DNA of 28,154 nt, from IMG/VR virus record IMGVR_UViG_3300044637_000380, positions 1 through 28,154 of that record; one strand, 5' to 3'. The position numbers were made by a program, and so were the translations under genes. The stretch comes from a virus. Positions within the stretch are counted from its first letter, which is position 1, and each line of letters opens with the position of its first letter. Shown here piece by piece: positions 10,954 to 26,995 of the stretch. Below the pieces are notes generated by a model. It made no database searches. It was not told where the DNA came from and saw only the letters and a program-made list of their open reading frames with translations.

Positions 10954-11142
10954 TTAGCAACCGTCTTCAGGCTCATGTCTCTTGCGCTCGATGGTCAAGC
11001 TTGCAAGATAATTGCGAACCATTTGGAGAATTGTTTCTTTAGCAGATGCAGGAACCCTGAAGGAAATTGTCGACATGCTTTCGCCATACATCGACTTTCG
11101 CCCGGCACCAGGTCTCCTGCCTCCGCGTTTTTCTGTTTTCAT
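10954..11142 (-). CDS. Putative ribbon-helix-helix DNA-binding protein
   Basis: 62 residues. The basic start GGRRPGAGRKS is AT-hook-like and common in small phage and plasmid DNA-binding proteins. It is followed by a short beta strand (MSTISFRVP) and a helix pair (ASAKETILQMVRNYLASL), the order of an Arc/MetJ-type ribbon-helix-helix repressor. It has the best promoter in the window: TTTG-19 bp-TACCTTTG ending five bases before the ATG, so the transcript would be leaderless or nearly so. It may regulate the small-gene and packaging block downstream. An internal ATG (residue 18) is a less likely start. Confidence 0.6.
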   Translation of the reverse strand: MKTEKRGGRRPGAGRKSMYGESMSTISFRVPASAKETILQMVRNYLASLTIERKRHEPEDGC

Positions 11143-11147
11143 GTGTG

Positions 11148-11178
11148 CAAAGGTATTTATTTGTTTGTGTTTTGCAAA
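11148..11178 (-). promoter_or_regulatory. Promoter (Bacteroidetes type) for the RHH-like gene
   Basis: The minus strand has TTTG at 11178-11175, then 19 bp, then TACCTTTG at 11155-11148: both elements and the spacing match the Bacteroidetes consensus. It overlaps the last codons of the upstream gene. The ATG at 11142 is five bases after the -7 box, so the leader is very short or absent. Confidence 0.65.
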
Positions 11179-19501: not shown

Positions 19502-20146
19502 TTATTTTGCGCGACCGATTGCGAATCCTGTAATGCCACCGAGCGCAAAAGCGAATGCCTTTGTCTCATACCACTTTTTCGGAGGCTGGGCCACAATTAC
19601 GTTGTGCATTCCTGTGACGCTTACGTATGGATTGTCTATGCCAAGGCGAACCACCTTGTCACGCTTACGCGAAAATAAGCCCTTACGCAGCGTATCTCCA
19701 ATTGCAACGGTATAACTTACCGGAATGATAATAGAATCGATTTGAAGCCTTCCTAAGCGGTTTATTGAGCCACCTATCTGAAGGAACTTCCCCTCTCGGC
19801 TGAATGACCTCGGCAGGCGTAAGTGCGGAAAGCTGTCGATATACACAGTCTCGCCAAGCTCGACTTGCGTCACCACCTTTGTACGCGTCTGGTATCTCAC
19901 CACCACTTCAGGCTCTCGCAGCTCCAAGGCTCGCAGCTTTGTGCCTGCCTCCGCGAGTTGGACGGCTTGGCTATGGATTTTGGAACTATCTCTTGCGATG
20001 CGCACAGTATACTCCGAATTCAGCGAATCAAGATACATGGCATTGCTTTCGGCCTCTCCTAATGCACCGCATGTGCGAAGCAATAGCAGCAAAATAAATA
20101 AGCAGATTGCCAATAGGCTCAGTGTGCTGATGTTGCTCTGGTGCAT
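19502..20146 (-). CDS. Spanin-like membrane protein (lysis)
   Basis: 214 residues. A hydrophobic helix at about 9-24 (LSLLAICLFILLLLLRTCG) is followed by a helical region (about 35-80), then a beta-rich part (VVVRYQTRTKVV, then GSINRLGRLQIDSIIIPVSY), and near the C-terminus a second hydrophobic Gly-rich helix (AFAFALGGITGFAIGRAK). Proteins of this shape end Bacteroidetes phage lysis blocks and are candidates for unimolecular spanins, which join inner and outer membranes after wall degradation. The gene is the last of the lysis block; its start lies 28 nt inside the 64-residue gene. Spanin function is inferred from shape and place. Confidence 0.55.
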   Translation of the reverse strand: MHQSNISTLSLLAICLFILLLLLRTCGALGEAESNAMYLDSLNSEYTVRIARDSSKIHSQAVQLAEAGTKLRALELREPEVVVRYQTRTKVVTQVELGETVYIDSFPHLRLPRSFSREGKFLQIGGSINRLGRLQIDSIIIPVSYTVAIGDTLRKGLFSRKRDKVVRLGIDNPYVSVTGMHNVIVAQPPKKWYETKAFAFALGGITGFAIGRAK

Positions 20147-20313
20147 TGTATTAATTCGTTAAGTCGTTTTATATACTCATCCTTGTTCCGCAATTCATTG
20201 AGCAAGATATCAGCCGCCACCTTCAGCGGCATAGCTTTTTCTGCAATATAAACAGCCAGCACCTTTACAAGTCTCTCATCACATTCGCAATCGGTAGCCG
20301 GAAGGTTGGTCAT
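20119..20313 (-). CDS. Unknown acidic protein, 64 residues
   Basis: The ATG overlaps the PAS-HisKA gene's TGA (ATGA) and the end overlaps the spanin-like gene by 28 nt. It starts MTNLPATDCECDERLVKVLA and is helical (AADILLNELRNKDEYIKRLN). There is no ATPase or receiver motif, so it does not supply the missing half of the kinase. It may be a partner of the PAS-HisKA protein, as coupling suggests, but nothing shows this. Confidence 0.6.
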   Translation of the reverse strand: MTNLPATDCECDERLVKVLAVYIAEKAMPLKVAADILLNELRNKDEYIKRLNELIQCTRATSAH

Positions 20314-20876
20314 ATTTGCCTGGTTGCTTTCTTAACTAATAGCCGGATGACATCATCAAGCTTATCAACGCTATTTGCAAGCATCTTCATCACATCATTT
20401 CGCTCCTGATCGGTTGCGCTTTCGTGCTCAATCATCATCTTCACCAAACCTCCGATTGAAGTCAATGGCTGGCGAAGTTCATGAGATAGCATGAAGCGGA
20501 ATTCTTCCAGAAGTATCTTCTGTCGTTCATGCTCATGGTTGCTTATGGAAGTAACATCGACAAGTTGAATCCCGATGAAGTGCAGCATGTCAACAATGGA
20601 ATAAATATTCCACATATTGTAACGCTCAGAGGCCATCTTCTGCTTTGTCTTGGCATAGGTGCGAATCGGGTCCGGAGTTTTTTTCTGTGCCTTCCTGATT
20701 GCACTTAGCAACTCATCGCGATCGGAATCATTGGCCGCAATGTCCAATATATTGCCTGGCTTAATGTGGCTGCTGTACTCCTTGAACAAATCATTGGAGG
20801 TGACGATATTGCCATCCTTATCGGTGATCACATAGAAGAGGTCGATTGATGACTCAAGGATGTGCAGGCTTGCCAT
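20310..20876 (-). CDS. PAS-HisKA protein without a kinase ATPase domain
   Basis: 188 residues from the ATG at 20876 (MASLHILESSIDLFYVITDK). Residues 5-108 look like a PAS sensor fold (DGNIVTSNDLFKEY; later IYSIVDMLHFIGIQLVDVTS). Residues 112-183 are a histidine-kinase dimerisation domain with a textbook H-box FMLSHELRQPLTSIGGL; His132 is the phosphoacceptor. The protein ends at the close of the second helix: no N, G1, F or G2 box of a HATPase follows, and the next gene does not encode one. It lies inside the lysis block, ATGA-coupled to the next gene, with TATCTTTG four bases before the ATG. It may dimerise with, or receive phosphate from, a host kinase; function is inferred. Confidence 0.8.
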   Translation of the reverse strand: MASLHILESSIDLFYVITDKDGNIVTSNDLFKEYSSHIKPGNILDIAANDSDRDELLSAIRKAQKKTPDPIRTYAKTKQKMASERYNMWNIYSIVDMLHFIGIQLVDVTSISNHEHERQKILLEEFRFMLSHELRQPLTSIGGLVKMMIEHESATDQERNDVMKMLANSVDKLDDVIRLLVKKATRQI

Positions 20877-20880
20877 ATCG

Positions 20881-20888
20881 CAAAGATA
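20881..20888 (-). promoter_or_regulatory. -7 box candidate before the PAS-HisKA gene
   Basis: TATCTTTG on the minus strand fits TAnnTTTG and lies in the 29-bp gap, but no TTTG is found 19 bp upstream. With the ATG four bases on, the transcript would be leaderless. Could be chance. Confidence 0.3.
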
Positions 20889-20905: not shown

Positions 20906-21304
20906 TTAGGCTAATTCTTTACGTAAGTCCTGTAAAAGATTTGACCAGGCAGCACCGCATCCCATAAGATACTTTGCAGACATCCACAGAGTGAAGCTGA
21001 AAACAATGCCGTTTAAAAGTATGTCGTAATCCATAGGCGTTTCCAATTCTTGCGTGTTTCTTACAGGCTGAGGTTTGGCAGTATAGTACGTGGGAGCAGC
21101 TAACAAAGATACATCGCAGGGCTGAATAGTATCGAATGCGGTGAGAACTTTCTCCTTGCGAGGCTGTGCCATGACTGCCTCGAAGCTTTCGCGGTTAGCC
21201 TGTGCGAAGCTTGTATCTGCATTGGCTGCCTCCCAGCTCATGGTGTCGATGTTGAGCTTGTTGTGCCTTGCAATCTTTACTGTATCTCTACGAATCTGCT
21301 GCAT
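20906..21304 (-). CDS. Membrane protein of the lysis block, unknown
   Basis: 132 residues. A polar N-terminal 90 residues (MQQIRRDTVKIARHNKLNID...) are followed by a hydrophobic helix at about 97-118 (LLNGIVFSFTLWMSAKYLMG) and a short amphipathic C-terminus. The start overlaps the holin gene's stop by 17 nt. The topology (cytoplasmic or periplasmic N-terminus with one C-terminal helix) could suit an antiholin or a spanin component. No family recognised. Confidence 0.6.
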   Translation of the reverse strand: MQQIRRDTVKIARHNKLNIDTMSWEAANADTSFAQANRESFEAVMAQPRKEKVLTAFDTIQPCDVSLLAAPTYYTAKPQPVRNTQELETPMDYDILLNGIVFSFTLWMSAKYLMGCGAAWSNLLQDLRKELA

Positions 21305-21494
21305 CGCTTTTTGCTTTTGGAATATACCCGGCAGCGATTAATGCTGCAATGATGGCGGTTAACGTCTCGGCTGTTATCACTTTGAAGATTAGTAAAAATA
21401 TGGATACCAGAATCATCAGCGAGCCGATGGTGCCACGCCAGTGCTTGACAACGACATCCACAACTCGCCTTGGTTTGGTAGCCCTTTTCCTCAT
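21288..21494 (-). CDS. Putative holin
   Basis: 68 residues from the ATG at 21494; an in-frame TTG at 21533 is possible but weaker. A basic N-terminus (MRKRATKPRRVVDVVVKHWR) is followed by two hydrophobic segments (GSLMILVSIFLLIFKV and LTAIIAALIAAGYI) joined by a short turn with TAET, the shape of a small class II holin. It lies right after the lysozyme, which has no signal peptide and needs a membrane hole. The C-terminus is short and polar. Confidence 0.65.
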   Translation of the reverse strand: MRKRATKPRRVVDVVVKHWRGTIGSLMILVSIFLLIFKVITAETLTAIIAALIAAGYIPKAKSDAADS

Positions 21495-21540: not shown

Positions 21541-21999
21541 TTAGAAGTTACAAAGTGAGAAGTACAGATTAGCCTCTTCGCGGCGGCGATTGGTTAAGCC
21601 ATTTAATACTTTGCCGCCTGCCTTGTTCCACTTTAGGAACTCGTCCAAGATTGAAGGGTCAGCGGCGTTTGCTTTGGCCTTCTTGAGCAGCGTGGATTTC
21701 ACCAACGCACCAGTCCCCACGTTGTAGCTGAAGGCTACCAACGCATCGAACTGGCATTGATTCAAATTCGGTAGGTGCTTATTCACCGCGTCCTCATATG
21801 GCGAAAGCGTAGCGAGTAGCAATTGCGTTGCTTCCTTTTCGCTTGCGAGCTTTTCGCCGAGAATTATTTTTTTGCCGTTTGGGTAACGGGTTGAGCCGTA
21901 GCCTATGGTAACGACCCCAGCAGGGCAAAGGTAGGAACTAAGCCGCAAGCCCTCGTACTTCTTGATTAGGTTAAGACCGAGAAGCGAGGTGGAGCGCAT
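21541..21999 (-). CDS. Endolysin, GH24 lysozyme
   Basis: 152 residues, the usual length of a T4-type muramidase. The catalytic triad is Glu16, eight residues, Cys25, five residues, Thr31, within KKYEGLRLSSYLCPAGVVTI then GYG. Cys in place of the T4 Asp20 is a known active variant of the family. The conserved C-terminal features are QFDALVAFSYNVG and LTNRRREEANLY. It cleaves the glycan backbone of peptidoglycan. No signal peptide or anchor, so release depends on a holin. Its ATG follows the previous TAA directly. Confidence 0.93.
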   Translation of the reverse strand: MRSTSLLGLNLIKKYEGLRLSSYLCPAGVVTIGYGSTRYPNGKKIILGEKLASEKEATQLLLATLSPYEDAVNKHLPNLNQCQFDALVAFSYNVGTGALVKSTLLKKAKANAADPSILDEFLKWNKAGGKVLNGLTNRRREEANLYFSLCNF

Positions 22000-25948: not shown

Positions 25949-26995
25949 TTACGGCAGGGCTGTCACATATTTCATGTTCTTTCTGCAATCCCAGCAATGC
26001 GTGTCATCAGGCAGGCGCATGTTCTGCAACATTGCACCAAGCTCTTCGCCGTAGCGAGTTGCTGCGATGTCACGGGCTGCAACGATACCTTCGAAAGCAT
26101 CGGCAGTGGCAAACGGCTTGGACCCACGATTCACCACTACGGTTGTGTTAACCCTTTGATTCGGGCTTATGGTCAGCGCATAGTTGTAAACCTCAACAGC
26201 GGTGGCGTAAGCAAGCGGCAAGGCCATCAGCCCACCGATTGAGCACATCCATCCTTGGCGGTCGCAGTTTATGCTATATGTGAGACTCATTCCAGTAGTG
26301 TACTTACTTGAGCTGCTTGTCAGCACATTTGTGCCATCGGTAGTCAATTCAATCCCGATTGCATCCACGAAAGGGCAAATGTGTGATTCCCTTGGACCGC
26401 CTCCGCAAGAAGTGCATGTGCCCTTCTTTGGAGTGAACTTCACAGTATTGATGTCCGACTCGTACACGATTGCAATGTCAAGCTTGCGCTTTGCTGAGGT
26501 GAATGTCTTGCCGATGAACTGGTCCAATGCACCCTCTGCATAAGTGATCGTCTCAAGCAATTTGCCTGTGGTCATGTCGAAGATAAGCACCGGCACGTTG
26601 GTATTCGCTGAAGCAATTGCCAGGTTAATATCTGCAAGGTAAAAATTCAAGTAACTAACAGTATTCGGGTCAATCTTCAATCTGATGCCACCATAATTGC
26701 CAGCACCAAGTGCATTCTGCACATTGGCATAATTGGACACAACTTGTCCAACTCGCTTGTTCTCAATCACAGTGTCGCTCTTCATCATCGGGCTGAGCTT
26801 AGTCAGCACATCGGATGATATCTTGCGCCATGCGAAGGCTCGTTTATCTTCAAACAGCTCAACGCCGTTGAGATATTGGTCCGTGATAAGTTGCCCTAAG
26901 AATGTCTGATTGATTCCGAGGTCATCGATGTAGAGCCCTGTCGATGGCTCTGGTGATTCGCAGCCTCTCAATCCGAGTAGTGATTCAATGCACAT
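25949..26995 (-). CDS. Virion structural protein, Cys-rich, unidentified
   Basis: 348 residues starting MCIESLLGLRGCESPEPSTG. It is alpha/beta and rich in conserved-looking motifs: FEDKRAFAWRKISSDVL, GNYGGIRLKIDP, a CTSCGGGPRESHICPF Cys/His cluster near residue 200, and HCWDCRKN near the end, so it may bind zinc or form disulfides. It follows the capsid gene, a terminator and a new -7 box. A connector, second capsid protein or tail protein are all possible; no portal motif was recognised. It is probably conserved among Bacteroidetes phages. Confidence 0.5.
   Translation of the reverse strand: MCIESLLGLRGCESPEPSTGLYIDDLGINQTFLGQLITDQYLNGVELFEDKRAFAWRKISSDVLTKLSPMMKSDTVIENKRVGQVVSNYANVQNALGAGNYGGIRLKIDPNTVSYLNFYLADINLAIASANTNVPVLIFDMTTGKLLETITYAEGALDQFIGKTFTSAKRKLDIAIVYESDINTVKFTPKKGTCTSCGGGPRESHICPFVDAIGIELTTDGTNVLTSSSSKYTTGMSLTYSINCDRQGWMCSIGGLMALPLAYATAVEVYNYALTISPNQRVNTTVVVNRGSKPFATADAFEGIVAARDIAATRYGEELGAMLQNMRLPDDTHCWDCRKNMKYVTALP

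Follow-up and report, generated by a model that had tools for sequence, protein, structure and literature searches.

What is a phage to do with the PAS domain and HisKA helix pair of a histidine kinase when the ATPase domain that would normally accompany them is missing, and why should such a gene sit among the lysis genes? The gene that raises this question lies on the minus strand at positions 20310–20876 of the window, by which we mean the whole stretch of DNA analysed here (28,154 nucleotides; IMG/VR record IMGVR_UViG_3300044637_000380).

Domain content of the PAS-HisKA protein

The open reading frame starts with an ATG at 20876, its stop codon ends at 20310, and it encodes 188 amino acids. 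The initial annotation, made from the sequence alone, described a PAS-like domain joined to an H-box helix pair containing His132, with no ATPase domain; this description is borne out by the Pfam HisKA match, by alignments to known kinases and by an AlphaFold2 model in which both folds are predicted. Specifically, the HisKA model (PF00512) covers residues 129–178 with 32 bits against a gathering cut-off of 26.9, and the same model is found in 46 of 46 diverse homologues (E ≤ 0.01). No Pfam PAS model matched the window protein at E ≤ 5, but sequence models miss many PAS domains; because of this, the PAS assignment rests on alignments to PhoR (residues 15–181, E 1e-9) and ThkA (3a0r; residues 6–182, E 1.6e-7) and on the structure model. 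An earlier AlphaFold2 model from 13 close homologues had a pLDDT of 65 and uninformative fold matches, and an alignment of 46 homologues was used instead. The resulting monomer model has a five-stranded PAS fold with a mean pLDDT of roughly 80–94 over residues 11–100, followed by helices at residues 113–150 and 156–187 with a pLDDT of about 50–80, the first of which contains His132. When superimposed on PAS-B domains, the modelled PAS part gives a Z of about 13 and an rmsd of mostly 1.8–2.6 Å over 92–103 residues, and a Foldseek search with the full model returns LOV/PAS histidine kinases at E values of about 1e-6. LOV kinases are in fact the best PDB matches, yet the sequence has no visible LOV cysteine motif, and light sensing of this type was rejected.

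On this model, the protein is a PAS fold (residues 9–107; 20556–20852) followed by a HisKA, or DHp, helix pair (residues 113–187; 20316–20540) with nothing beyond it, the chain terminating after the second HisKA helix. The His132 codon occupies 20481–20483, and the residue lies in the context F-R-F-M-L-S-H-E-L-R-Q-P, with Glu133 next to it and Gln136 at the position associated with phosphatase activity. The protein belongs to the HisKA domain family but is not a histidine kinase.

A core gene of an uncultured phage group

Relatives of the gene are present on at least 356 IMG/VR contigs. Because these earlier loci had been found through the PAS-HisKA gene itself, we chose the structural protein encoded at 25949–26995 as the seed for a less biased test and took the 80 most similar loci, a set from which more distant relatives without the gene could be missed. 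PAS-HisKA is present in each of the 50 loci whose sequence covers the region; there is no locus without it among those that extend more than 7 kb downstream, and the other 30 end too early. In this set, the median identity to the window's PAS-HisKA protein is 55–60% in the two large lineages, compared with 50% for the lysozyme, 28–38% for the small neighbour that we call c4 and 35–38% for the spanin-like protein. It is similar to or higher than that of the holin candidate (25–58%), and it lies below that of the structural protein (67%). The gene is thus a core gene of a large uncultured phage group, and it diverges more slowly than the adjacent lysozyme.

Outside this group the picture is different. 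The only match among 50,697 records of phage isolates was a spurious one from Listeria (E 0.05), and the capsid-like protein of the window had no match in phage isolates either. The initial remark that phages rarely carry HisKA domains therefore holds for isolates but fails for the present group, where the gene is universal among the loci in which it could be looked for. In genome scans, patterns from the N-terminal part recovered no bacterial relative, and patterns from the HisKA part led to nothing beyond a generic kinase and, in a metagenome-assembled genome (MAG) of Bacteroidota, one phage-like contig (locus L104). A profile search of 296 Bacteroidota genomes returned, besides the L104 gene, only distant kinase frames with E values of about 2e-10 or weaker; hence no close cellular ancestor and no close homologue bearing a HATPase domain was found. 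When we looked for further viral HisKA boxes with a DNA pattern, two matches came up, both at the margins of unrelated phage-like loci and on the opposite strand. We found no account of an ATPase-less PAS-HisKA phage protein in the open-access literature.

The L104 homologue, which is 51% identical, is also informative about the host. Its short contig shares the local gene order (holin candidate, a second small neighbour called c2, spanin-like gene, PAS-HisKA and c4), and the strongest cultured match of the window's terminase is to Flavobacterium phage 11b (E 2e-23). Taken together with the type of promoter box described below, the MAG contig and the terminase match make a Bacteroidota host likely. 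This phage group probably infects Bacteroidota, the binning of a phage contig being in itself no proof of infection.

Lysis genes and a predicted promoter upstream of PAS-HisKA

The location of the gene within a lysis block, as originally proposed, is supported, although the individual assignments differ in strength. All of the genes are on the minus strand. The lysozyme, or endolysin (21541–21999), matches Pfam PF00959 with an E value of 2e-38. The 68-residue holin candidate (21288–21494), with two hydrophobic segments, has a conserved position and a weak match to the PHROG 565 holin (E 0.021). The 132-residue c2 protein (20906–21304) also has a conserved position and, by eye, one C-terminal transmembrane segment, and the spanin-like protein (19502–20146) is assigned by eye from the topology of its N- and C-terminal hydrophobic segments. 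Nearly all lineages examined have the order lysozyme, holin candidate, c2, PAS-HisKA, c4 and spanin-like gene.

The association with c4 is constant. The ATGA coupling of PAS-HisKA to a 64-residue gene, proposed at the outset, is confirmed for the open reading frame at 20119–20313; such an overlap is present in most lineages, with a gap of 4–13 nucleotides in others. The c4 homologues have 61–67 residues, with conserved P, E, DE, L, Y and MP positions, and always come next after PAS-HisKA; conversely, a search seeded with c4 found PAS-HisKA directly upstream in 24 of 24 loci.

In every lineage, the gene between the holin candidate and PAS-HisKA is a c2 homologue; these proteins have 130–169 residues, evolve fast and gave no confident family match. 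In L104, L106 and L107, the spanin-like gene is swapped for an unrelated protein, encoded upstream of PAS-HisKA, with a lipobox and a C-terminal transmembrane segment; this protein resembles a unimolecular spanin, an apparent non-homologous spanin exchange. Some lineages (L107:3986-4750; L162, L148; cluster c20) have a secreted-looking protein of 254–258 residues before the holin candidate; it has no NCBIfam match, and its C-terminal segment looks similar to type IX secretion tails.

Upstream of PAS-HisKA in the window is the sequence TATCTTTG (20881–20888, minus strand), which follows the TAnnTTTG pattern of the Bacteroidota sigma-A −7 box and occupies positions −12 to −5 relative to the start codon. 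The pattern is at exactly this place in 123 of 123 readable loci of the window's clade, against a chance expectation of 0.04 occurrences per 60 nucleotides, and in ten upstream regions with little other conservation (mean major-base frequency 0.48) all six fixed positions of the box are invariant. In L177, which has a GTG start, the box is at the same place; L127/L128, L243 and L107 have no such box at −12 to −5. Flavobacterium sigma-A promoters have this box at −12 to −5 counted from the transcription start (PMC9723704). With this spacing, the expected transcription start coincides with the first base of the start codon, and we predict from the sequence that PAS-HisKA has a private, leaderless promoter in the window's clade. 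Leaderless or near-leaderless mRNAs make up only 3.7–5.5% in Bacteroidota (PMC7366714; PMC9723704). A second box in the window, TACCTTTG (11148–11155, minus strand), starts 13 nucleotides upstream of the start codon of a 62-residue gene (10954–11142), which by the same pattern may also be leaderless; three other window genes have a TAnnTTTG box 23–29 nucleotides upstream.

These observations bear on the possibility that the protein is a dedicated lysis-timing sensor, in which the PAS domain reads an intracellular cue such as redox, energy or membrane state and the protein, with or without phosphorylation of the histidine, acts directly on one of its neighbours: the holin, c2 or the spanin. The predicted PAS fold and the fixed place between the lysozyme, holin and c2 genes and the spanin-like gene are what this would lead one to expect. 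However, in the window's clade the predicted promoter would uncouple the gene from the lysozyme and holin genes, so that its expression need not follow theirs, which weakens a purely lysis-timing role; furthermore, the neighbours diverge faster than PAS-HisKA does, and the position may be merely inherited. We consider this explanation unlikely.

Conservation of the H-box

Complete homologues (169 proteins, 107 of them distinct, a subset of the IMG/VR relatives) have 183, 188 or 189 residues. All 169 contain the box F-R-F-x-L-S-H-E-L and have L-[VIL]-K-K-A-[TA]-R followed by two final residues at the C-terminus, and His132 is invariant in all of them even as its codon varies synonymously (CAC in 105, CAT in 64). 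Both His132 and Glu133 are invariant in our alignment (A5), and across six or more lineages, with identities as low as about 50%, the histidine and its H-box are nearly invariant. In the window's clade, the H-box is the best-conserved stretch, with a mean identity of 95% against 63% in the next segment.

One relative departs from this pattern. In L204 (L204:2453-3001), whose PAS-HisKA protein is 49% identical to that of L107, the H-box has decayed to S-I-N-H-D-V-I-N-N, and the histidine and c4 are retained. With most of the H-box gone here, accepting phosphate may be dispensable in part of the group, and the sequence suggests that the lineage might differ in function.

It is worth considering whether HisKA is here a mere dimerisation scaffold for a regulatory complex of the PAS protein and c4, its histidine having a structural and not a chemical role. 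Isolated PAS proteins and pseudokinases do occur in bacteria, and c4 always adjoins PAS-HisKA. A conserved histidine can indeed be structural, which counts against reading the protein as a phospho-acceptor. Nonetheless, a scaffold does not readily account for an H-box that is more conserved than the segment that follows it, or for the retention of Glu133, whose counterpart in the kinase CrdS is needed for phosphorylation, and we regard this alternative as rather improbable.

Phosphate chemistry

If the histidine is phosphorylated, the phage does not appear to supply the other parts. In 25 related phage records of 28–62 kb each, which may be incomplete, there were no matches to HATPase_c, HATPase_c_2 or HATPase_c_5, to the receiver domain (Response_reg) or to tyrosine integrases, and control genomes gave matches. 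With neither a HATPase nor a receiver in these records, host proteins are the expected source or destination of any phosphate.

The residues around His132 bear on the kind of activity. Mutational work on the HisKA kinase CrdS showed that phosphorylation needs the histidine and the Glu next to it, and that phosphatase activity needs a Thr or Asn at +4; the N375Q change abolished phosphatase activity and left about 60% of the kinase activity (PMC3510030). The window protein has E133-L-R-Q136, which does not match the E/D-x-x-T/N phosphatase motif; at +4, nearly all members have Gln, three have Ser and one has His. The retention of His132 and Glu133, with Gln136 in place of Thr or Asn, favours, by analogy with CrdS, a protein that accepts or transfers a phosphoryl group and has no phosphatase activity.

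Isolated HisKA DHp domains, such as those of EnvZ and NtrB, do suffice for phosphatase activity (PMC3510030 and references therein), and the phage protein could in principle act in the same way on a host response regulator. This would fit L204, a single contig with the opposite, phosphatase-like pattern of Asp beside the histidine and Asn at +4. For the group as a whole it is improbable, as nearly all members carry the very residue that abolished the activity in CrdS.

Finally, the domain order matches that of a kinase cut after HisKA, but it is extremely unlikely that the gene is what decay or truncation has left of a captured histidine kinase, given its constant length, the lack of internal stops in 100 loci of the window's clade, their median dN/dS of about 0.09 and the lack of a HATPase in any frame of the records searched. 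The initial annotation had also raised the loss of a HATPase domain by frameshift; no homologue with such a domain, in frame or shifted, was found, and we reject this.

Discussion

The explanation that we favour, and to which we give about an even chance, is that the protein accepts phosphate under the control of its PAS domain, relies on the kinases or response regulators of the host to do so and is sited in the lysis block. It would be a soluble PAS-DHp protein in which the PAS sensor gates a dimeric HisKA bundle that holds a phosphoryl group on His132. The group could arrive by two routes: the ATPase domain of a host kinase might phosphorylate His132 in trans, through a mixed dimer or by docking to the DHp domain, or a host response regulator might hand its phosphate back. 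Either way, the phage would divert a host two-component pathway as it infects the cell, with the PAS domain in control and c4 as a putative constant partner or regulator. Each of the roles first suggested for the protein, namely mixed dimers with host kinases, a phosphate sink and the setting of lysis time, may still apply. A more elaborate and tentative version, in which the acceptor, made from a leaderless mRNA in the middle of the lysis block, reads together with c4 the phosphorylation state of a host two-component pathway and sets the time of lysis, seems to us improbable.

It is informative to compare the phage protein with known systems. The kinases ThkA (3a0r), PhoR and the LOV-kinase YF1 (4gcz) have the same PAS and HisKA pair with a canonical H-box, alignable in sequence or fold over both domains; the phage protein differs in having no HATPase, in being soluble and short and in having no cognate regulator that we could find in the genome. 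In Spo0B and ChpT, a DHp-type helix pair passes phosphate on within a known relay without autokinase activity, but these proteins keep a degenerate ATPase-like domain that the phage protein lacks altogether. The isolated DHp domains of EnvZ and NtrB likewise show that HisKA without an ATPase domain may be a functional unit, although these are laboratory truncations with Thr or Asn, whereas the phage gene is natural, conserved, fused to PAS and has Gln (PMC3510030). Phage phiCDHM1 also carries a two-component part without a cognate regulator, but its AgrC is a mirror image in that it has the HATPase domain (PMC3901668). Among predicted viral structures (BFVD), A0A6J5L941, an annotated histidine kinase of an uncultured Caudovirales, is another such phage part, and A0A6J5KZZ3, a 169-residue “PAS domain” protein also from an uncultured Caudovirales, has a similar size and predicted fold (E 6e-4) with an identity of only 12%. 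PAS-HisKA may act as a histidine phosphotransfer protein gated by PAS, with its chemistry borrowed from the host.

Phage-borne two-component parts are usually seen as occasional cargo. In this widespread group, by contrast, a kinase fragment belongs to the core genes and evolves slowly. Given that it is retained by all of the relatives in which its presence could be assessed, these phages probably plug the protein into host signalling. If confirmed, this would be a virus that depends on the kinases of its host to power its own sensor, and the idea that the state of host signalling feeds into infection or the timing of lysis would become directly testable.
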